The position numbers were made by a program, and so were the translations under genes. The notes beneath the pieces are model-generated. The model did not search any database. It was not told where the DNA came from and saw only the letters and a program-made list of their open reading frames with translations. From Candidatus Brocadia sp. (GTDB lineage: Bacteria; Planctomycetota; Brocadiia; Brocadiales; Brocadiaceae): a DNA stretch of 64,000 nucleotides. The stretch is from the NCBI GenBank assembly GCA_021646415.1, contig SOEU01000002.1, positions 248,001 to 312,000 on the forward strand. The letters are read 5' to 3'. This document shows, one piece after another, positions 9,252 to 62,404 of the stretch (the stretch's first letter is position 1; the number at the start of each line of letters is the position of its first letter).

Positions 9252-9418
9252 GTAATCGTTGGGAGCATTCCCGATTTTTTGTGACTTCTGCCAGGTTTTA
9301 ATGAAACGTACAGCAGTGTTAACCCTGACAGGGTTTGAAACCCTGTCAGGGTTGTTGAATTGTTTTGCCCTGACCCTATGAACTGCTACAAAAAATCGGG
9401 AATGCTCCCGTAATCGTT
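9252..9418. mobile_element. 149-bp MITE with 22-bp terminal inverted repeats and 9-bp target duplication
   Basis: The element spans 9261-9409. Its ends are perfect 22-bp inverted repeats beginning GGGAGCATTCCCG. It is flanked by the direct repeat GTAATCGTT at 9252-9260 and 9410-9418. A central hairpin (AACCCTGACAGGGTTT and its complement, 9321-9353) occupies the middle. It has no coding capacity, so it must have been moved by a transposase encoded elsewhere. Confidence 0.85.
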
Positions 9419-9604: not shown

Positions 9605-9700
9605 ACTTTCGCCCTTTCAGGGCTAAAAATATTATTAAATCTTTATCCCAGGGCTGTCGCCCTGGGCTATATTCTATCAGCCCTTCGGGCTTTCCCCGAA
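9605..9700. repeat. triple-palindrome intergenic repeat
   Basis: Three hairpins follow one another: GCCCTTTCAGGGC (9611-9623), CCCAGGGCTGTCGCCCTGGG (9647-9666) and AGCCCTTCGGGCT (9679-9691). This pattern is typical of bacterial dispersed palindromic repeats. The rest of 8821-9871 outside the listed elements shows nothing recognisable. Confidence 0.65.
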
Positions 9701-11801: not shown

Positions 11802-11900
11802 TTAATTAACCCTGTCAGGGTTTAAAACCCTGACAGGGTTGCCTCACGAATTTCGTGCTTCGAATTTCGTCTTTTCCAATTTGTTCGGGTCAGGATCAAT
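11802..11900 (+). repeat. dispersed ~100-bp repeat with CCCTGTCAGGG hairpin, copy 1
   Basis: A strong hairpin (AACCCTGTCAGGGTTT with its complement, 11808-11840) is followed by CTCACGAATTTCGTG and TTGTTC.GG blocks. The whole ~100 bp is similar to 55422-55520 in the same orientation relative to the following gene. The hairpin core alone also forms the centre of the MITE at 9261-9409. Confidence 0.75.
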
Positions 11901-48961: not shown

Positions 48962-49050
48962 AGAGAGGAAACAGCGTGATAATGTCTTGAATATTCTCCG
49001 TGTTTTCTGTGGTTGGTTTTTTATATCATAAATTCATTCAGGAATCTAAT

Positions 49051-50082
49051 ATGAAGCAGCTTCTGAATACACTTTATGTAATGACCCAGGGTGCTTACCT
49101 TACCTTGGACCATGAGACAGTAAAAGTGGAAGTTGAGGGGAAGACCCAGCTTCAGGTACCGCTCCATCATTTAGGGGCGATATTTACCATGGGAAATGTG
49201 ATGATGAGCCCGTTTCTTATGCATCGCTGCACTGAAAATGGCAAGGCTGTCGTCTTTCTCAATATGAATGGTCAGTTTCTTGCCAGGGTTGTCGGAAAAA
49301 CAACGGGAAATGTACTCCTCAGACAGGCACAGTATGTGGCAGCAAGTGATGCAAATAAGGCCGCCTCTATTGCAAAGAATATCGTAGCCGCAAAATTGCA
49401 GAATTCACGCCAAATACTTTTAAGGGGCGCCAGAGAGATAGAAAATACTGGGATAGAAGCGGGACTAAGACAGGCAGCGACATCCCTTTCTGATGCACTC
49501 ATCAATCTTAAGAAAAGTGGTACTATTGACGAGACCAGGGGACTTGAGGGCATATCTGCCAATGCCTATTTCCAGGTCTTTGATACGATGGTCAAGGAAA
49601 ATCGGGAAACCTTTATCATGAAAAGCCGTAACCGACGTCCGCCGAGAGATCCGATGAATGCGTTGCTATCGTTCATTTATACGCTCCTTCTCAATGATTG
49701 TGTATCTGCAGCTGAAGGGGTGGGACTCGACCCTCAGGTGGGTTTTCTGCATGCCATCAGACCGGGCAGACCCTCTCTGGGACTGGACTTGATGGAGGAA
49801 TTACGTTCTATACTGGCAGACAGACTTGCCCTTACCCTTATAAACCTGAAACAGATTACAGAGAAGGATTTTGAGGAGAGAGAAGGGGGTGCAGTTTATC
49901 TCAATGAAGGGGGGAGAAAGGCCGTTGTCGTTGCATATCAGAAACGAAAGCAGGATGAATTCACCCATCCATTATTGGAGGAGAAAGTACCCTTTGGCTT
50001 GATTCCTCATGTTCAGGCGCGTCTCCTGGCAAGGCACTTACGCGGAGATATGGAAGAATATATTCCCGTTTTGTATTCGTAA
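49051..50082 (+). CDS. cas1: CRISPR integrase Cas1 (type I-C)
   Basis: Cas1 is the integrase that inserts new spacers. The 343-residue protein starts MKQLLNTLYVMTQGAYLTLD, typical of the type I-C branch. It has the catalytic-region blocks MNALLSFIYTLLLNDCVSAAEGVGLDPQVGFLHAIRPGRPSLGLDLMEELRSILADRLALTLIN, with the conserved Glu, His and Asp. The frame is open to GTG 49000, but that part lies in an AT-rich leader, and TTCAGGA lies just before the ATG at 49051. cas2 follows after 11 bp. Confidence 0.96.
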   Translation: MKQLLNTLYVMTQGAYLTLDHETVKVEVEGKTQLQVPLHHLGAIFTMGNVMMSPFLMHRCTENGKAVVFLNMNGQFLARVVGKTTGNVLLRQAQYVAASDANKAASIAKNIVAAKLQNSRQILLRGAREIENTGIEAGLRQAATSLSDALINLKKSGTIDETRGLEGISANAYFQVFDTMVKENRETFIMKSRNRRPPRDPMNALLSFIYTLLLNDCVSAAEGVGLDPQVGFLHAIRPGRPSLGLDLMEELRSILADRLALTLINLKQITEKDFEEREGGAVYLNEGGRKAVVVAYQKRKQDEFTHPLLEEKVPFGLIPHVQARLLARHLRGDMEEYIPVLYS

Positions 50083-50093
50083 AGGAGGAAGAG

Positions 50094-50384
50094 ATGTGGG
50101 TTATAGTCACGTATGACGTTACGACAGAAACAAAGGAAGGGCGCAGGAGGCTTCGCAGGGTTGCCCAGGCATGCAAGAACTTTGGTCAAAGGGTACAGAA
50201 GTCGGTCTTTGAATGTTCTGTGGATCAGGCGCAATTTGAGACGTTAAGACGCAATCTATTGAAGGAGATTGATGTAAAAGAAGACAGCCTTAGATTCTAT
50301 AGGCTGCAGGAACCAAGAGATGCACATGTAGAAGAACATGGCGTTAACAGGACGGTATTCTTTGACGAACCTTTAATTATTTAA
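50094..50384 (+). CDS. cas2: CRISPR-associated protein Cas2
   Basis: Cas2 forms the Cas1-Cas2 spacer integration complex. The 96-residue ferredoxin-fold protein starts MWVIVTYDVTTETKEGRRRLRRVAQACKNFGQRVQKSVFECSVDQAQFETL, the standard type I-C Cas2, with the conserved Asp in TYDV. AAAGGAGGAAGAG precedes the ATG. The stop lies about 180 bp before the first CRISPR repeat. Confidence 0.97.
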   Translation: MWVIVTYDVTTETKEGRRRLRRVAQACKNFGQRVQKSVFECSVDQAQFETLRRNLLKEIDVKEDSLRFYRLQEPRDAHVEEHGVNRTVFFDEPLII

Positions 50385-50562
50385 CGCGAACCTGTTGCGA
50401 TATTGAAAACCCCGGAGGGTTCGCAGTTTATGTATCATAATAAAATCAAACCTGTTAGAGGAGGTGACCTATTGATAAACGATGTCTTGATAGAGTAAAA
50501 ATTGATCGTTCGCAGATGGAAATACATAAATATATAAACTGTGAGACGTTCCATGTGCGACC
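50385..50562 (+). promoter_or_regulatory. CRISPR leader
   Basis: AT-rich, non-coding 178 bp between cas2 and the first repeat. It contains a GCGAACC/GGTTCGC inverted repeat (50386-50392 and 50418-50424). Position next to cas1-cas2, together with the decayed repeat at the other end of the array, marks it as the leader side where new spacers enter. A promoter for the array is expected here but was not resolved. Confidence 0.75.
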
Positions 50563-51505
50563 GTAGCATCCAGCCTTCGGGCTGGATGAGGATTGAAACA
50601 CAGATCACCCCTCCTTCCACAAAATCCACCAGGCGTAGCATCCAGCCTTCGGGCTGGATGAGGATTGAAACTTTGATAGATGATTTAACCATTGCGGAAT
50701 TCGGGTAGCATCCAGCCTTCGGGCTGGATGAGGATTGAAACTCGAATGACCTGATAGGGCCGAAGGCATTGGCAAATGTAGCATCCAGCCTTCGGGCTGG
50801 ATGAGGATTGAAACTTAAATCCGTGGGTAAGGTGTCCACCGTGGGACGTAGCATCCAGCCTTCGGGCTGGATGAGGATTGAAACTTATAGGTCGGGCACG
50901 GAGGAAACAACAGATTTTGTAGCATCCAGCCTTCGGGCTGGATGAGGATTGAAACGTTTTCGTGGAAAGCAGGTCTCAGATACGGAGTAAGTAGCATCCA
51001 GCCTTCGGGCTGGATGAGGATTGAAACGCGAGGACATACAAGCAACAGGCACGGCTTATAACGTAGCATCCAGCCTTCGGGCTGGATGAGGATTGAAACA
51101 CGTACCCGCCAGCCACCACGCTCCCGCCAGCCGCGTAGCATCCAGCCTTCGGGCTGGATGAGGATTGAAACTTTTTTCACAACAAATTCAGGGTAATATT
51201 CAGTTCGTAGCATCCAGCCTTCGGGCTGGATGAGGATTGAAACGTCGTTCTGGCAAAGGTAATGGCTAATGAAACATGTAGCATCCAGCCTTCGGGCTGG
51301 ATGAGGATTGAAACCAACAAAGAAAAAATTATAGACCTAATCACTGGCGTAGCATCCAGCCTTCGGGCTGGATGAGGATTGAAACAGATTGTCCGAAATG
51401 TGAAAAGCTGAAAGAGAAAGTAGCATCCAGCCTTCGGGCTGGATGAGGATTGAAACTTGATGCCCCAAATTGCCCCAATAGTCGTTAATACGTGCATTCA
51501 GCCTC
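50563..51505 (+). CRISPR. CRISPR array: 13 full 37-bp repeats plus a decayed end repeat
   Basis: The repeat is 37 bp, GTAGCATCCAGCCTTCGGGC followed by TGGATGAGGATTGAAAC. It contains a perfect 9-bp stem (CATCCAGCC/GGCTGGATG) with a TTCG loop, and the ATTGAAAC 3' end common to types I-B, I-C and III. Full repeats start at 50563, 50635, 50705, 50778, 50848, 50919, 50991, 51063, 51135, 51207, 51278, 51349 and 51420. All appear identical. Spacers are 33-36 bp. A truncated, mutated repeat (GTGCATTCAGCCTC) follows the thirteenth spacer at 51492. Longer than the usual 32-bp type I-C repeat. Confidence 0.98.
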
Positions 51506-54248: not shown

Positions 54249-55100
54249 TTATATCGGGTCTATATGCACAAATGCCTTGTGGATGCTTTCTATAGACTCT
54301 ACTGCCCGTTGGACATTTTTCCCAATGCCGTGTGCCTGCGTTAGTGTTAAGGACTGGTCTAATGCTATATGAATTTCAACATGAATGTAATTGCCCACAT
54401 AATGCGCACGGACGTCGTGAATTCCCATAACGCCTGATACCGCGCATGCCTTCTTTTTTATTTCTTCCATGATAGCTGATTCAGGCTGTCTGCCCATGAG
54501 GTAATCGATATTATGAATGCCAATCTTATACCCCGAGTAGATAATCCAAAAACCGATAAGGGTCGCTGCAATATCATCCATGTGTGTATATCCGTAACGT
54601 CCACAGATAACACCGACAAGGGCGGTCGTGGATATATATACATCGTTTCTGCTATCGATAGAGCTTGCCAGCAAAGCAGGGCTATTAATTTTAAGACTTA
54701 CCTTTTTTAAGTACCCGGACAGGATCAACTTCATGCCTATAGACACCAGCAGTGTTACGATCGCAGGAATACCGACCTTATGCACATGTGTCTCCATCAG
54801 CTTGAACACAGCGGTGTGCAGGATTTCAAATCCTAAAATACCCGCAAAAATAGCCACGATCAAACCTGCTATCGGTTCTGCACGATGGTGACCGAAAGGA
54901 TGTCCCTCATCCGCCTGTTTGGAAGAGGTCTTTACGGCATAGAATATGATTACGGAAGAAATAATATCGGTCAGCGAGTTAACGGCATCTGAAATAATTG
55001 CCAGGCTGTTCGACATTATACCGGCAGTTATCTTGATAGAGAACAGAAAGACATTGCAAATGATCAGGATAATCGTTGCCTGACGACCTTTATTTTCCAT
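54249..55100 (-). CDS. cation diffusion facilitator (CDF) metal exporter
   Basis: CDF proteins expel Zn(II), Fe(II), Mn(II), Co(II) or similar ions by proton antiport. The 283-residue protein has six membrane helices (about 9-29, 36-56, 79-99, 112-132, 156-172 and 178-198). The two metal-site motifs are SNSLAIISDAVNSLTD and SIDSRNDVYISTTALVG, where the second HxxxD of zinc exporters is replaced by S-R-N-D-type residues. The cytoplasmic domain is ferredoxin-like (about 205-283, GVMGIHDVRAHYVGNYIHVEIHIALD). A palindrome at 55140-55158 lies 39 bp upstream of the ATG. Confidence 0.93.
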   Translation of the reverse strand: MENKGRQATIILIICNVFLFSIKITAGIMSNSLAIISDAVNSLTDIISSVIIFYAVKTSSKQADEGHPFGHHRAEPIAGLIVAIFAGILGFEILHTAVFKLMETHVHKVGIPAIVTLLVSIGMKLILSGYLKKVSLKINSPALLASSIDSRNDVYISTTALVGVICGRYGYTHMDDIAATLIGFWIIYSGYKIGIHNIDYLMGRQPESAIMEEIKKKACAVSGVMGIHDVRAHYVGNYIHVEIHIALDQSLTLTQAHGIGKNVQRAVESIESIHKAFVHIDPI

Positions 55101-55421: not shown

Positions 55422-55520
55422 AAATTAACCCTGTCAGGGTTTTAAACCCTGACAGGGTTGACTCACGAATTTCGTGTTTCGGATTTTATCTTTTCAGACT
55501 TGTTCAGGAATCGAATATGA
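55422..55520 (+). repeat. dispersed ~100-bp repeat with CCCTGTCAGGG hairpin, copy 2
   Basis: Matches 11802-11900 over about 100 bp, including the hairpin (55426-55459) and the CTCACGAATTTCGTG block. It runs right up to the ATG of the b6-like gene, so it would be transcribed as its leader. The other 260 bp of the gap hold no recognised feature. Confidence 0.75.
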
Positions 55521-56092
55521 ATGATAAAAAAACTGAAGTAATGAATAATGAAATGGAAAGTAAGGGTATATTGAAAGAACTTATAGAAATCAATATTACC
55601 AGAAAATTGATTCCCAAAGGGTTGAGCTGGTTTGGATGTATGGGGGGGTTGTCATTGTTTGCATTCATGATCCAGGCAGTTACAGGAATATTTCTTGTAT
55701 TCCACTTTATTCCTGGTGAAAGAGATGCATTAACCAGTATTCAAAATGTGACTCATAACGTCCCCTATGGATGGCTTATTCAACGTATACATGCAGTTGG
55801 GCCTAATATTATGCTTGGAATGGTATTTAGTCACATGCTTCGCATTCTCTTTAAAGGGATTTACAGGCATCCACGAGAGTTTCACTGGGTATCAGGTGCA
55901 TGTCTGCTTATATTGACCGTACTCATTTATTACACAGGGAATTTGTTATCGGTAAGTAACGTGAACAAGCATTCGGCCATGTTGATATACCTATATGCCA
56001 CGCATGTAGCAGGCATACCGCTGATTATGGGATTATTTATGGGTATGCATTTCTTTATGGTAAGAACAACAGGGATTTGTGAACAATTATAA
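55517..56092 (+). CDS. cytochrome b6-like membrane protein
   Basis: The 191-residue protein corresponds to the N-terminal four-helix half of cytochrome b. All four haem ligands are present. RIHAVGPNIMLGMVFSHMLR gives two His 14 residues apart, and ATHVAGIPLIMGLFMGMHFF gives two His 15 apart, the spacing of cytochrome b6 rather than mitochondrial cytochrome b. The helix-A block GLSWFGCMGGLSLFAFMIQAVTGIFLVFHFIPG also matches. No subunit IV or Rieske gene follows; multihaem cytochromes do. The frame extends upstream to 55394 through the repeat; the ATG at 55517 is preferred. Confidence 0.9.
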   Translation: MNDKKTEVMNNEMESKGILKELIEINITRKLIPKGLSWFGCMGGLSLFAFMIQAVTGIFLVFHFIPGERDALTSIQNVTHNVPYGWLIQRIHAVGPNIMLGMVFSHMLRILFKGIYRHPREFHWVSGACLLILTVLIYYTGNLLSVSNVNKHSAMLIYLYATHVAGIPLIMGLFMGMHFFMVRTTGICEQL

Positions 56093-56139
56093 TAGTACGA
56101 TTGTCTCAGTAATTGAGAAACCCCAGGAATTTGACTACC

Positions 56140-57426
56140 ATGTTTGACGAAGTAAAAAGATTAAACAAAAAGCATACTATTAAGCTTGCTATATTCTCAG
56201 GAGTAGCAATGGGAATTGTGCTTGTCGTCATGTTTGTTACGGTAACAAACCCGAAACAAAGGCAATTTTGTATCAACTGTCACAGCAATATTTCATTGAA
56301 TACTGTTTGTAAAAAACAATCATCGAAGGACATTGCCTGTAGTGAGTGTCACAACCACGAAAATAAAGGTGCCATGGTGATGGGGATAAAAATAAAAGAC
56401 GAGCATTGTACAACAGAATCTTGCCATCCTTTGAGTAAATTGTCAGCTACGGCTGTTCAATATAAAAAGATTACACCATTTGAACATAAGACACATACAG
56501 GCAAGTTTGCCGAAAATTTTCAGTTGAAATGTACTTCTTGTCATGCAAATCTCGGTGGAGAGAAACATTTTGAAACAGATACGAGGACATGTAATGTGTG
56601 CCATTTTACCGATACTCCCAAACATCCTGGTTCACAGGGCAAAAAACCCATCTCCGATTGTGCCCTGTGCCATACCCATATTGAAAAGACCTTGAAGATA
56701 TATGAGAAGACTTTTAGACACGATATGTATGAAGGAAACGAAAAGGTGAGTTGCTCTGATTGCCATTTTAAAATTGTTCAGGGCAATGGGAAAGTAGATA
56801 AAGAGAGTTGTGGTCAATGTCACGTAAAGGTAAGCGGTGATTTTCATAATGCATCCGACATGCATCGCATCCATAGTGATACCTGCAAGACAGACTGTAC
56901 ATCGTGCCATAATCCTATTACCCACGGCTGGATTAAGGTAAATAATAAGATTGACGGGAGCGGACATAATTCACAATTCGTGGATACCGGCTCCGAAGTA
57001 CAAAATTTGATGATGATGGGAAGGGGTGGTTCTGGTGTCGAAGGTGAACCAGACCCTATGTACCTTGCAACTTTAAATTGTTCCGCATGCCATAAAGATA
57101 CATTATTTACGAATGTGAAACCCCAGGTATGTAACAACTGTCATGGCAGAGGATTTGATAAAATACTATTTGAACAGAGGCGTTTTGTATCATTTAACTT
57201 ACAGTTGTTAAAGACCTTGCTGATTAAAGCGAAAAGATATCAGGACGTTAACACAGACCGCATCATTCAGGAGGCGGAAGCAAATTATACCTTAATCAAG
57301 AAAGACGGTAGTCTGGGTGCCCATAATATAAAATACGTTAAGAATCTTCTGGGGTACTGCATTGGGCAGTTGAAACAAATAACAAAGCAAAACCCTGAAA
57401 TTTTATCGTTACATGAAAACTTATGA
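56140..57426 (+). CDS. membrane-anchored undecahaem c-type cytochrome
   Basis: The 428-residue protein has one N-terminal membrane helix (about 18-38) and then 11 haem-binding motifs: ten CXXCH (CINCH, CSECH, CTSCH, CNVCH, CALCH, CSDCH, CGQCH, CTSCH, CSACH, CNNCH) and one CX4CH (CTTESCH, third in order). The C-terminal 90 residues lack haem sites and are helical. The N-terminal anchor followed by haems recalls NapC/NrfH-type quinol-linked cytochromes, but the full arrangement is different. ATG 56140 follows AGGA; TTG 56113 is an alternative. Its stop overlaps the next start (ATGA). Confidence 0.92.
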   Translation: MFDEVKRLNKKHTIKLAIFSGVAMGIVLVVMFVTVTNPKQRQFCINCHSNISLNTVCKKQSSKDIACSECHNHENKGAMVMGIKIKDEHCTTESCHPLSKLSATAVQYKKITPFEHKTHTGKFAENFQLKCTSCHANLGGEKHFETDTRTCNVCHFTDTPKHPGSQGKKPISDCALCHTHIEKTLKIYEKTFRHDMYEGNEKVSCSDCHFKIVQGNGKVDKESCGQCHVKVSGDFHNASDMHRIHSDTCKTDCTSCHNPITHGWIKVNNKIDGSGHNSQFVDTGSEVQNLMMMGRGGSGVEGEPDPMYLATLNCSACHKDTLFTNVKPQVCNNCHGRGFDKILFEQRRFVSFNLQLLKTLLIKAKRYQDVNTDRIIQEAEANYTLIKKDGSLGAHNIKYVKNLLGYCIGQLKQITKQNPEILSLHENL

Positions 57427-58424
57427 AATATGGGATTAAAATGCAATTACGATATATCTTTTTTATAAGTTTCATGCTATCACAACAATTAGCATGGGGG
57501 AATACTGATCATATCACATCACAACAGGAAACATACCAGTTGCCTTCCGCGGCTTCCCCTGCTTTGCAGAAAGGCGATGAAGGTAAGATGAGAAAATCTT
57601 CAAAAAAGTCGAGTCTTTCACTGTTTAACGGAATACAACAGCCGCATACATACTATTCCACAGGCTCTTGCGTCGACAGGTGCCATGTGAATTATGTGAC
57701 ATATCAAACGATGTACGGAGCGGAGTTTTTCCGGCACAGGGTTCATTCACCGAAACAGGGGATGGATTGTAATTTGTGCCACGAGAACTATGTTGCCGAT
57801 ACGAAACCACATGGCAATCTGATTATACAGAATAAAGATTGTGTAACCTGTCATCATAAAGAGGTGCGCAATGCAGAATGTTTGAAATGTCATGCAGGGA
57901 TAAAAGACTATATGGATGGATGTATTCAGGACATGATCACTGACGTACCCGATTGGATGTCAAAGAATGTCTCCTGTAATGATTGCCACAAGCTGGAATT
58001 GGACGGGTCCGCATTTAAACCCGTACGTGGGTCCTGCGTAGAATGTCACAGTTCCGGTTACGGGGCATTGTATGATTTATGGAAAGAGATACTGGATAAG
58101 GAAATCAACCAATACTGCGAAAACGAGAGTAATATTCTTAGTGTGGCAAACCATGGTCAGACTTACTCTTCCAGCACCATCCTTTGGGCAGAGCAGATAA
58201 ATGCCGTAGCCAGTTATCTGTTTCATGATTCTTTTGTCTCTCCTCTTTTGCAAGGAGAGGGGAGAGAACGAGGGAAAAAATCTCAAAAAAAGATGTTTTT
58301 GCAGCTTGATGTTACAAACAGGCAAAGTCTTTTACAATTTATTCGGTCTTGCGGTATGCACAATATTCTGTTATCGCAAATACTTTTAAAATCTATGGAA
58401 AAAGGACAACAACATTTGAGATGA
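57423..58424 (+). CDS. hexahaem c-type cytochrome with in-frame repeat insertion
   Basis: The 333-residue secreted protein has a signal peptide (about 6-25, ending QLAWG). It carries six haem motifs: one CX3CH (CVDRCH) and five CXXCH (CNLCH, CVTCH, CLKCH, CNDCH, CVECH). After about residue 220 the haem region ends. The stretch SPLLQGEGRERGKKSQ is encoded by the palindromic repeat at 58237-58274, inserted without breaking the frame. The start and stop overlap those of the neighbours (ATGA at both ends), so the genes are translationally coupled. Confidence 0.88.
   Translation: MKYGIKMQLRYIFFISFMLSQQLAWGNTDHITSQQETYQLPSAASPALQKGDEGKMRKSSKKSSLSLFNGIQQPHTYYSTGSCVDRCHVNYVTYQTMYGAEFFRHRVHSPKQGMDCNLCHENYVADTKPHGNLIIQNKDCVTCHHKEVRNAECLKCHAGIKDYMDGCIQDMITDVPDWMSKNVSCNDCHKLELDGSAFKPVRGSCVECHSSGYGALYDLWKEILDKEINQYCENESNILSVANHGQTYSSSTILWAEQINAVASYLFHDSFVSPLLQGEGRERGKKSQKKMFLQLDVTNRQSLLQFIRSCGMHNILLSQILLKSMEKGQQHLR
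58237..58274 (+). repeat. palindromic repeat inside the hexahaem cytochrome gene
   Basis: CTCTCCT and AGGAGAG arms around CTTTTGCA, followed by GGGGAGAGAACGAGGG. This is the same C-run/G-run repeat type seen between genes, here translated. Confidence 0.65.
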
Positions 58425-58999
58425 AAATTATATTCCTCCGATTCATTGCACTTATCGCATGCATAGTTGTTACGATTACAGGTGCCATATTCCTGGAAAT
58501 ATTCCTTGATTTTACTGGCATGGGATCATTTAAACACATTATTGGAATGACAGGCACTATTCTTATAGTAATCTCAATTATCTACACTTTGAGAAAAAGA
58601 AAATTTATTTTTAAATTTGGGTACGTAAAGAAATGGCTCATTGCACATGAATGGCTTGCCATTGTGGGAACCGGCCTTATCTTTGTCCATGGCGGATTTC
58701 ATGGACATGCCCTTGTCCCTTTATTGACAACAGGTGTTATGTTTGTAACTGTTGTAAGTGGACTTACGGGTAGATATCTTTACTTACAGGTAAGCGAAGA
58801 ACTCATGTTACGGAAAAATGAAATGGAAAAAAGCGGCATGGCTAAAGAGGAAATTGAAAACACACAATTATCCCTTATTGTAGCGCATAGACTCATGAAA
58901 CATTGGCGTACCGTTCATATTCCCATTGTTTTTATTTTAGCTCTAACAATAACATTTCATATCCTGTCTGCCCTGTATTATGATGGGCTTTTGAAATAA
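58421..58999 (+). CDS. b-type cytochrome-like membrane protein
   Basis: The 192-residue protein has four likely membrane helices (about 5-28, 37-57, 78-103 and 163-186) with His residues inside or at their ends (HEWLAIVGTGLIFVHGGFHGHA; HRLMKHWRTVHIPIVFILALTITFH). These could bind haem b, as in cytochrome b561 or ferric-reductase-like proteins. No close family was recognised. Its ATG overlaps the stop of the hexahaem gene (ATGA), and the dodecahaem gene starts 7 bp later, so it belongs to the same complex. The frame is open upstream to 58349. Confidence 0.8.
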   Translation: MKIIFLRFIALIACIVVTITGAIFLEIFLDFTGMGSFKHIIGMTGTILIVISIIYTLRKRKFIFKFGYVKKWLIAHEWLAIVGTGLIFVHGGFHGHALVPLLTTGVMFVTVVSGLTGRYLYLQVSEELMLRKNEMEKSGMAKEEIENTQLSLIVAHRLMKHWRTVHIPIVFILALTITFHILSALYYDGLLK

Positions 59000-59006
59000 T
59001 TTTACT

Positions 59007-60005
59007 ATGAATAAATCAATCTTACTCGTATTACTTATCACATCAGTCGTATTGTTCATTATTTGGGCCGTAGGTTGTAGATTCCCCACCCATCTTTATT
59101 CTCCCGGAGATCTATACAAAGACCATCAGGGTATTAAAAACTGTAGACAGTGCCATATGCCTTTCCAAGGTGCAGTTTCAAGTTTGTGCATGACCAGTGA
59201 CTGTCATACAGTCGAAAGACTATCTCAGCTTTCGAGTAAATCATTGTCTGACCTCCACATCTCTTACGTCAACAAAGATTGTTTGGATTGTCACACCGAA
59301 CACAAAGGAATTGCGGGAAAGATCACAAAAGCCTTTGATCACAAAACTCTTGCATTAACAATACTTAATGAGTGTGCGGCGTGTCATAATGAAGACTATC
59401 AGAGATCTCATCCCAATAAATTTGATATGGATTGCAAGACCTGCCATATTTCTACTACAGGATGGAAAATTATATCTTTTAACCATATTGCTATCTTGGG
59501 AAAAATGCCTTGTATAAATTGCCATCCTATGCCCGGTGACAAAAAGCACCAACAATATCCGGCTACCTGTGAAACCTGTCATACCATGGAGGATTGGAAA
59601 AAAGTACGCTTTCACCATGACGCACTCGTTCCAACACAAACCTGTGTAGAGTGTCATAAAAAACCCAAAGACAACCTCCATGAAACCGTCTCTGAGGACT
59701 GCAGGACGTGTCACAATACAGAAAAGTGGAGACCGGCAATTTTTGACCATGGTAAATATTTCCCTCTTACCGGAGTGCACTATGTCTCATGTGCTACCTG
59801 TCATCAGAATGGTAATTATAAGCAGTATACATGCCTGAGCTGTCATGAGCATAACACATCCCATATCAGACACGAGCATGAGGAACATGGCATATACAAT
59901 TACGGAGATTGTCTGAGATGCCACAGAATGAAGATTAACGGAAAGAATTACGGCAACCCCAACGCAGAATATTTTGATGAAGAGGAAGAAGACGATGATG
60001 ATTAA
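59007..60005 (+). CDS. dodecahaem c-type cytochrome, possible lipoprotein
   Basis: The 332-residue protein has an N-terminal hydrophobic segment ending in IIWAVGC (Cys24), which may be a lipobox. Twelve haem motifs follow: eleven CXXCH (CRQCH, CLDCH, CAACH, CKTCH, CINCH, CETCH, CVECH, CRTCH, CATCH, CLSCH, CLRCH) and one CX4CH (CMTSDCH, second in order). The regular spacing with F-[DN]-H repeats between them (KAFDHKTLA, SFNHIAILG, RFHHDALV, IFDHGKYF) suggests internal duplication. It ends in an acidic tail (EEEEDDDD). It is the last gene of the cytochrome set. Confidence 0.92.
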   Translation: MNKSILLVLLITSVVLFIIWAVGCRFPTHLYSPGDLYKDHQGIKNCRQCHMPFQGAVSSLCMTSDCHTVERLSQLSSKSLSDLHISYVNKDCLDCHTEHKGIAGKITKAFDHKTLALTILNECAACHNEDYQRSHPNKFDMDCKTCHISTTGWKIISFNHIAILGKMPCINCHPMPGDKKHQQYPATCETCHTMEDWKKVRFHHDALVPTQTCVECHKKPKDNLHETVSEDCRTCHNTEKWRPAIFDHGKYFPLTGVHYVSCATCHQNGNYKQYTCLSCHEHNTSHIRHEHEEHGIYNYGDCLRCHRMKINGKNYGNPNAEYFDEEEEDDDD

Positions 60006-60115: not shown

Positions 60116-62404
60116 TTATTTAGTATTCGTATGAAGTGCTGCTGAAAGATTACTATCAAGCTTTGACACAAAGGCATCATAAGTATAAGAAATACTAATA
60201 TCACCGTTGTAATAAGGATCGTAAGAAACCGGATTTGTTGGGAAGTTTGAAGAGCGAGTCTCACCTGCCACATAAATATTTCCACCTGGACCCAGGGCAA
60301 TAGAGTGAGCAATATCTCTATAATATCCACCCAAAAAGGTAGATGCAATGAGACTTTTTAAATCATTGCTCAGCTTTGATATAAAGGCATCAAAAAAGAC
60401 ACCTTTGGAAGTAGTATAAGCACCCGGAGTAGTTGGGAAGTCTGGTGATCCCGTGTAACCTGCAATGTATATATCCCCTCCTGAGCCGATTGCTATGGAA
60501 TTGCCCACATCATCATCCGCCCCTCCCAGAAATGTAGATGCAAGAAGGTGTGTCAAATTCCAATTGAGCTTCGATACAAAGGCATCGCCATTATGAAACG
60601 AAGTATCATAAGCGCCATGTGTGGTTGGAAAGTCTAATGATTCAGTTTGACCGGTTACATAGATATTCCCACGTGAGTCTATGGCAATAGAAGTGGCAGA
60701 ATCATCTGTAGTTCCTCCAAGATAGGTGGATGCAAGAAGGTGTGTTAAATCCCGATCTAACTTTGAGACAAAGACGTCACCAAAACCCCCATTAAAGGAG
60801 GTATCATAAGCGCCGATACTTGCAGGAAAGTCAGACGACCAGGTCTCACCACTTACATAAATATTCCTGTCTGAATCTATAGCTATCGAAGTGCCATAGT
60901 CGTTATCGGTTCCCCCCAAATAGGTGGAAGCAAGCAGGTGGGTTAAATTCCAATTCATTTTCGATATAAAGACATCCCCATTGTCAAACGAAGTATCATA
61001 AGCGCCGGGGATTGTTGGAAAGTTTGATGACAAAGTCCTGCCGGTTACATATATGTTATTTCCACCCGGATCTAAAATGATAGCATGAGCATGATCATCT
61101 GACGACCCTCCTAAATAGGTGGATGCGAGAATGCGGGTTAAATCTCCATTCAGCCTTACCAAAAAGGCATCACTAGAACCACTTTTCGAAGTATCAAAAA
61201 CATCAGGAGTAACGGGAAAGTCCGATGATGAAGTTTGACCGGTCACATAAATATTTTTAAAAGAATCTATGGCTATGGAACGCACATAATCCTCGGAGGC
61301 TCCTCCTAAATAGGTAGATGCAATAAGACGTGTTAAATCACCATTTAGTTTTGTTACAAAGATATCACTGTCACTATAAGAAACATCATATGCGCCTGTT
61401 GATACCGGAAAATCTGAAGACATAGTATAACCAGCGACAACGATATTTTTATCTGAATCTATGGCTAGAGAATAGCCATAATCCGAATCAAGACCTCCCA
61501 AATACGTAGAGGCAAGAAGCGGATCAATGATGAGTTCCTTTGTCCTGTCATAAGCTGCTACTTTGAAACCGTAAGCCAGTTGCAGGTTATCTGTTTCTGG
61601 TTTCGAGCAGCAGGGTTCAGACAGAGAATGAAATACTTGTAATTTTCGTTTTGGGATTTTCGGATTTGAGAGGTTTACTTCTGCATTCTGACTGCTGACT
61701 TCCGGCTCCCGCAGCCGATATTCAACATCGACCACAACTCTCTCACCATGTATCTCCTGATATGCTGCAGGCCTTGTAAATACAACGGTTCCTAACTCTG
61801 TCTCCGCCTCAAGCTGTCCTTCTTCATTTACCTTTACGGCATTTGCCCCGTTCAGTTTTATTTTTATTTGGTTCGGGTTTGCGCCGGGTTTCACCGTAAA
61901 TAGCTTTTCCATATTATTTCCAAACGCCTTCAGCCGTAAGCTGATACCCTCATACACCTCCCCAAGGTTAACAACATCATATGTTGAGATATTACTTTTC
62001 CATCTGGATGGGTCCTTCCCTTTAAAATAAGACACTTTTGTTGCCGTCTTTCCTTCTCCTTTTATTTTTTCTACTTTCCCACCGATAAACTCCTCCTTGA
62101 GGATCGCTTTTTTTGGCCATTTCTCATCTGAAATTTTCTCACGCATTTGCGGCAATGAATAGACGAGTTCCCCACCGTTCGTTATAAATATGTTTCCCCC
62201 AAAAGTATTTGCAAAAAATGCTACTCTTTCATCCATCTGTTGTTCATTGGCGATGAAAGGAATTTGGAGTCTTTGCGTTTTTTGCATAAATGCTGCTTTT
62301 GATGGTTTGTTTTTATCCTTCTGTTCATCCGGAAAAAATGGCGGAAAAAACACTGCCACAACAAGTACCGATCCAAATAAAAAAAGTTTATTCCCCCGGT
62401 TCAT
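60116..62404 (-). CDS. secreted SBBP-repeat beta-propeller protein
   Basis: The 762-residue protein has an N-terminal signal/anchor segment (about 5-25). An N-terminal domain of about 260 residues follows (IANEQQMDERVAFFANTFGGNIFITNGGELVYSL), then seven repeats that each start LxASTYLGG or LxASTFLGG and contain AIDSxxNIYVTGxTxSSDFP and DAFVSKLN. These are SBBP repeats, which build a beta propeller on the cell surface. Such proteins are large and variable in planctomycetes and myxobacteria. The ligand is unknown. It is convergent with the cytochrome genes and faces the psd gene head to head. Confidence 0.92.
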   Translation of the reverse strand: MNRGNKLFLFGSVLVVAVFFPPFFPDEQKDKNKPSKAAFMQKTQRLQIPFIANEQQMDERVAFFANTFGGNIFITNGGELVYSLPQMREKISDEKWPKKAILKEEFIGGKVEKIKGEGKTATKVSYFKGKDPSRWKSNISTYDVVNLGEVYEGISLRLKAFGNNMEKLFTVKPGANPNQIKIKLNGANAVKVNEEGQLEAETELGTVVFTRPAAYQEIHGERVVVDVEYRLREPEVSSQNAEVNLSNPKIPKRKLQVFHSLSEPCCSKPETDNLQLAYGFKVAAYDRTKELIIDPLLASTYLGGLDSDYGYSLAIDSDKNIVVAGYTMSSDFPVSTGAYDVSYSDSDIFVTKLNGDLTRLIASTYLGGASEDYVRSIAIDSFKNIYVTGQTSSSDFPVTPDVFDTSKSGSSDAFLVRLNGDLTRILASTYLGGSSDDHAHAIILDPGGNNIYVTGRTLSSNFPTIPGAYDTSFDNGDVFISKMNWNLTHLLASTYLGGTDNDYGTSIAIDSDRNIYVSGETWSSDFPASIGAYDTSFNGGFGDVFVSKLDRDLTHLLASTYLGGTTDDSATSIAIDSRGNIYVTGQTESLDFPTTHGAYDTSFHNGDAFVSKLNWNLTHLLASTFLGGADDDVGNSIAIGSGGDIYIAGYTGSPDFPTTPGAYTTSKGVFFDAFISKLSNDLKSLIASTFLGGYYRDIAHSIALGPGGNIYVAGETRSSNFPTNPVSYDPYYNGDISISYTYDAFVSKLDSNLSAALHTNTK

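Follow-up and report, generated by a model that had tools for sequence, protein, structure and literature searches.

The 64,000-nt stretch of Candidatus Brocadia sp. DNA analysed here (the window) comes from a Brocadiales genome (G000) of 3.8 Mb that is 99.96% complete, in which it is part of a 427-kb contig. Hydrazine synthase alpha (PF18582) was found in this genome, and the host is therefore an anaerobic ammonium-oxidizing (anammox) bacterium of the Brocadiales. Our subject is a run of five cytochrome genes in the window, encoding a cytochrome b6-like protein (A), a membrane-anchored 11-haem c-type protein (B), an exported 6-haem c-type protein (C), a predicted di-haem b-type membrane protein (D) and an N-terminally anchored 12-haem c-type protein (E). 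The original prediction, made from the letters of the window, had described five adjacent genes with start/stop overlaps and short gaps, carrying 29 c-haem motifs. The coordinates of the open reading frames, all on the + strand, bear this layout out: 4-base ATGA overlaps join B to C and C to D, and 7 bases separate D from E. A recount of the motifs also returned 29 (11, 6 and 12), with two CX4CH and one CX3CH as the variants.

Proteins of the A-B-C module

Protein A (positions 55517-56092, + strand, 191 amino acids) was assigned by a match to PF00033 (1.4e-22), by alignment to the cytochrome b6 of structures 2zt9 and 1vf5, and by family alignments and a tree; the Pfam search gave no Ni_hydr_CYTB match. 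Residues H92, H106, H163 and H178 form the two histidine pairs for haems bP and bN that characterize bc1 and b6f complexes, and these histidines were invariant in a 22-sequence alignment, upholding the earlier description of A as b6-like with all four haem ligands. In addition, Cys41 aligns with the cysteine of the b6 'FYCLGG' motif and is invariant in the A clade, making it the predicted attachment point of a b6-type haem cN. The C-D loop of cytochrome b lines the Qp quinone site, forms its portal and provides the docking face for the Rieske head. This PWDQ-type loop is full in the Rieske-linked sisters of A (LLPWTQLSYWGAKV...), degenerate in Scalindua-type and f3 genomes, and deleted in Brocadiaceae, including the A protein of the window.

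Protein B (56140-57426, + strand) carries 10 CXXCH motifs and one CX4CH. Its true start is most likely the ATG at 56140, giving 428 amino acids, rather than the TTG at 56113, because the aligned homologues begin at MFxEV. Protein C (57423-58424, + strand) carries five CXXCH motifs and one CX3CH. The CX4CH of B was retained in 14 of 14 aligned rows, and the CX3CH of C in nearly every full-length relative among the matches listed; the two variant motifs are therefore not sequencing noise. The C-terminal part of C (58077-58424) contains a stretch, SPLLQGEGRERG, that looks like a translated dispersed repeat.

The two halves of B resemble different proteins. The C-terminal half matches MccA and PDB chain 6i5b, which we take to be OcwA. 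The N-terminus, comprising the membrane anchor and first haem region, resembles NrfH (2j7a; profile E value 2.4e-7), although in the Pfam search it fell below the NNT cut-off; this is a likeness to the NrfH/NapC quinol dehydrogenases that raises the possibility that B itself oxidizes menaquinol on the positive (p) side of the membrane, electroneutrally. B would then feed periplasmic or extracellular acceptors in the manner of CymA or NrfH, with A as a structural or side partner. Anammox cells do pass electrons to electrodes, and a CymA-like protein has been proposed as the quinol oxidase in that process (PMC7188810). However, B differs from the NrfH/NapC proteins in having 11 haems and an OcwA/MccA-like C-terminal half, and the haem-1 methionine of their CXXCHxM motif has been lost in Brocadiaceae. 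All 16 of the B homologues from outside the A-B-C clade have this methionine, and Scalindua-type genomes keep it, whereas haem 1 of the window protein reads CINCHSN. Moreover, A keeps all of its b and cN haem ligands, which would be unexpected in a passive partner. We therefore regard quinol oxidation by B as unlikely.

Descent of A-B-C from Rieske-linked complexes

Many Brocadiaceae and Scalindua-type genomes carry homologues of A, B and C. The commonest gene order is an MMPL exporter, an AMP-ligase-like protein, a U32 peptidase family protein, a class III aminotransferase, A, a subunit IV-like protein, a 5-haem protein, B, C and an alpha/beta hydrolase-like protein. Other forms of A-B-C are A, subunit IV, an 8-haem protein, B and C, or A, B and C with or without subunit IV. 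The cassette of exporter, ligase, peptidase (U32/UbiU-TrhP-like), aminotransferase and hydrolase genes is itself conserved around the cytochrome operon in both Brocadiaceae and Scalindua-type genomes (L092, L093 and L096-L099).

The original prediction noted that the window cluster lacks a Rieske protein and subunit IV. This proved correct, with subunit IV encoded elsewhere in the host genome. Both the host and G017, a genome of the same genus, carry an operon of the usual kind (L100, L209) with subunit IV, the 5-haem protein and a second C, and without A or B; the copy beside a cation-efflux (CDF)-type transporter gene has A and B and lacks subunit IV. In the host, the A family and B each occur once and the sole subunit IV seen is at C23 (L100), so that one complete set of subunits is spread over the two loci. 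C23 is probably the source, in trans, of subunit IV and the 5-haem protein. In the Kuenenia-like genome G031, A is likewise separate from the other genes.

The wider family points to an origin outside the Brocadiales. A profile of B found homologues in other Planctomycetota. Genes for a Rieske protein and a cytochrome b are near neighbours in roughly half of these loci, in several together with a subunit IV bearing the PEWY motif; the remainder show none of these, and several of them end at contig ends. Rieske genes are present beside many of the non-Brocadiales relatives, and every A-B-C locus that was read lacks a Rieske motif. Subunit IV has PEWY in the Rieske-linked loci versus PVW, PPW, PLW, IPW or ISW in Brocadiales, so that the glutamate is missing from the latter. 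In the tree, whether or not the C-D loop columns are included, A forms a single clade next to the Rieske-linked cytochrome b of family f97 (support with these columns omitted, 98/96 for A and 100/99 for the joint clade), and falls outside the host's own Rieske-linked cytochromes b. As judged from these comparisons, A-B-C is a descendant of a Planctomycetota Rieske/cytochrome b/multihaem complex that has lost its Rieske/Qp machinery.

A contrary reading is that a Rieske protein joins A-B-C in trans, making a quinol:cytochrome c reductase of the ordinary b6f-like kind whose genes are scattered. There are four Rieske/cytochrome b loci elsewhere in the host genome, and subunits are already divided among loci. 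We nevertheless give this reading scarcely any credence, because the C-D loop is deleted and the PEWY glutamate lost in the same lineages.

Several known systems invite comparison. The Rieske/cytochrome b complexes of Kuenenia (Kustd1480-1485 and Kuste4569-4574) include a Rieske protein and an NAD(P) oxidoreductase (PMC12954380). They share with A-B-C a b6-like four-helix cytochrome with a haem-cN position, a subunit IV-like protein (in the wider operon of A-B-C) and hexa- or octahaem c-type proteins that replace cytochrome f. Unlike them, A-B-C has neither a Rieske gene nor the Qp loop and PEWY glutamate. The Geobacter extHIJKLMNOPQS genes (PMC5877670) also combine a cytochrome b with several multihaem c-type proteins, and ExtP was the best NCBIfam match of A, at 132.2 bits against a cut-off of 290. 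The 5-haem protein of the sister operon matches ExtKL (1.4e-10), far below the curated cut-offs. A Rieske protein (ExtO) sets the ext cluster apart from A-B-C, as do its porin and its rhodanese-like protein. Next to the window cluster we recognised neither a porin nor any outer-membrane conduit, and the extracellular acceptor suggested by the original prediction has found no direct support.

Two further systems bear comparison. The Mco genes of anaerobic methanotrophic (ANME) archaea encode a VhtC hydrogenase-type cytochrome b, with no Rieske protein, followed by a 7-11-haem c-type protein, for which exchange between membrane carrier and c haems has been proposed (PMC9012536). The pairing of a Rieske-less cytochrome b with a multihaem c-type protein, and the similar working, recall A-B-C. 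Unlike VhtC, however, A belongs to the b6/bc1 family, an assignment made by PF00033 and without direct comparison to VhtC, and the likeness is one of convergence, not membership. Geobacter Cbc5 (cbcEDCBA), a putative menaquinol oxidoreductase, comprises a b-type cytochrome, a membrane protein and 7-, 12- and 2-haem c-type proteins (PMC7894505, PMC11434368). Compared by description only, it resembles the window cluster in having five genes for b-type and multihaem c-type proteins and differs in haem counts and gene content.

Two modules joined at one locus

Proteins D and E have a history of their own. Protein D (58421-58999, + strand) may be akin to b561/Ni-hydrogenase cytochromes b; its match to PF01292 scored 20.9 bits, below the cut-off of 30.1. 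An alignment revealed four invariant histidines in two HX13H pairs (H76/H90 and H166/H180), and D is therefore predicted to be a second di-haem b-type protein. A Foldseek search with the predicted structure of D gave no significant match, and VIA-align of the same model, a predicted helical bundle, returned bundles of mixed kinds, in which Dcytb (Z 8.1) and b6 (Z 6.6) appeared alongside unrelated proteins. Protein E (59007-60005, + strand) carries 11 CXXCH motifs and one CX4CH. Its predicted structure was too poor for use (pLDDT 50.7), and no solved-structure relative was found at the threshold used. The C-terminal tail of E is strongly acidic (DEEEEDDDD).

The five genes had been read as one complex. 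A gene-neighbourhood search of 62 Brocadiales genomes instead found A-B-C and D-E apart elsewhere, adjoining each other in no genome read except the host, and we rejected the single conserved complex. A-B-C and D-E are two independent modules, and the cluster in the window is a composite. D was matched in 10 of the 62 genomes, and E follows D wherever D is well conserved and its surroundings are readable. In G026, G038 and G041, D-E is followed by an 8-haem HAO-like protein (the G041 copy ends at a contig end) and A-B-C is absent from the locus; in G043, D is broken and E missing. Outside the Brocadiales, D-E pairs occur in Bacteroidota and gammaproteobacteria (Flavobacterium, Thiocapsa, Sedimenticola, Thiodiazotropha and others), and at the three gammaproteobacterial loci tested an NAD/FAD/2Fe-2S flavoprotein precedes D-E. 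The host also has an HAO-like octahaem gene (G000:C2:239137-240477; L212:9117-10481) on the same contig, approximately 63 kb from D-E, whose product is 58% identical to the D-E partner elsewhere.

The flanking genes mark the locus and are not proposed members of a complex. Upstream lies the CDF-type transporter gene (54249-55100, - strand), and the same transporter flanks A-B-C in G017 and the D-E loci of G026, G038, G041 and G043 (77-88% identity of the window gene to the L081, L017, L018, L019 and L022 copies). The downstream boundary is a gene for an SBBP-repeat-like protein (60116-62404, - strand; 82% identity to L081:7308-9593); its orthologue stands directly after C in G017, where D-E is absent, and after E in the host.

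The CDF locus has been rearranged several times, and with the modules apart in every other genome seen, A-B-C and D-E could be merely juxtaposed, doing unrelated jobs and sharing a promoter at most. Such an arrangement would be compatible with the function that we favour for A-B-C below. However, the ATGA overlap of C with D and the 7-base gap between D and E make coupled translation likely, and both modules are wires of b-type and multihaem c-type cytochromes. We judge mere juxtaposition to be less likely than not.

Other features of the window were also recorded. A near-palindromic repeat, CCCTGTCAGGGTTT(T/A)AAACCCTGACAGGG, occurs three times, at 55429-55457 (just upstream of A), 9323-9351 and 11810-11838, where none would be expected by chance. 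Within 49000-51500, Cas1/Cas2-like genes precede a CRISPR-like array whose repeats were called as spurious open reading frames. An Acido-Lenti-1 RNA (RF01687) was detected at 9647-9692, its 54.2 bits exceeding the gathering score.

A candidate quinone oxidoreductase without a Rieske protein

The known devices for quinol oxidation on the p-side have gone with the Rieske protein, the C-D loop at Qp, the NrfH-type methionine and the PEWY glutamate, while the ligands of the b haems and of haem cN persist. On balance, we lean towards the view that A-B-C makes up the central part of a menaquinone:multihaem-cytochrome c oxidoreductase that has no Rieske protein and does not bifurcate, a function predicted from sequence. 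In this model, the p-side quinol-oxidation sites would have eroded and a single quinone site would remain on the negative (n) side near haem cN. Electrons would pass between that site and the 11-haem protein B by way of haems bN and bP, and between B and the 6-haem protein C. The productive direction would more likely be from low-potential c haems to menaquinone, because n-side reduction by p-side donors conserves energy, whereas the reverse spends proton-motive force. D-E may act as a second, separately evolved di-haem b/multihaem unit, tied in its relatives to an HAO-like octahaem protein or an NADH/FAD/2Fe-2S flavoprotein. It is perhaps in the same gene run so that both wires share a pool of c haems, a guess from the gene layout.

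The original prediction, that electrons move between quinone pool and c haems by a route not yet characterised, stands as the best reading, and we found no description of it, or of any anammox Rieske-less b6 complex, in open-licence papers. It needs amending in that A-B-C is a relative of the bc complexes and most of the homologous operons have a subunit IV.

Several points weigh against the function that we propose. The argument for the direction of flow is a purely thermodynamic one. B retains an NrfH-type anchor, with which p-side quinol oxidation would still be possible, and a Rieske protein encoded elsewhere in the genome might serve the complex in trans. G017 also has a complete cluster of A, subunit IV, the 8-haem protein, B and C, so that assembly in trans is not forced there. 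Finally, a count compiled from the A and hydrazine-synthase tables showed that, among the 32 hydrazine-synthase genomes at least 90% complete, A is present in 22 (in one of them as two fragments) and absent from 10. A-B-C therefore has an accessory role.

The same count bears on whether A-B-C is the long-sought membrane acceptor of electrons from hydrazine dehydrogenase, an acceptor still described as unidentified in anammox bacteria (PMC12954380). The architecture would suit transfer from p-side c haems to an n-side quinone, and two-thirds or so of the near-complete genomes have A. Its absence from the others, which include the 99%-complete G016, G036 and G038, led us to reject a universal hydrazine dehydrogenase:quinone oxidoreductase. 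That A-B-C is the acceptor sought is in our view very improbable. As a more speculative proposal, to which we attach a low probability, A-B-C may be a one-site electrogenic quinone reductase derived from a bifurcating bc complex. Low-potential electrons, whose source may be the oxidation of hydrazine or hydroxylamine, would reach menaquinone along its 17-haem wire, making A-B-C an energy-conserving point of entry for electrons from N compounds in many but not all anammox bacteria.

The distribution of A already excludes A-B-C as the single universal route for hydrazine electrons. The link between electrons on c-type haems and the quinone pool is an open question in anammox metabolism, and A-B-C represents a concrete candidate for an additional route. 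As a Rieske-less descendant of the bc complexes, in which p-side functions have been lost in traceable steps while the b and cN ligands are intact, it also offers a natural test of a b6 complex without bifurcation.

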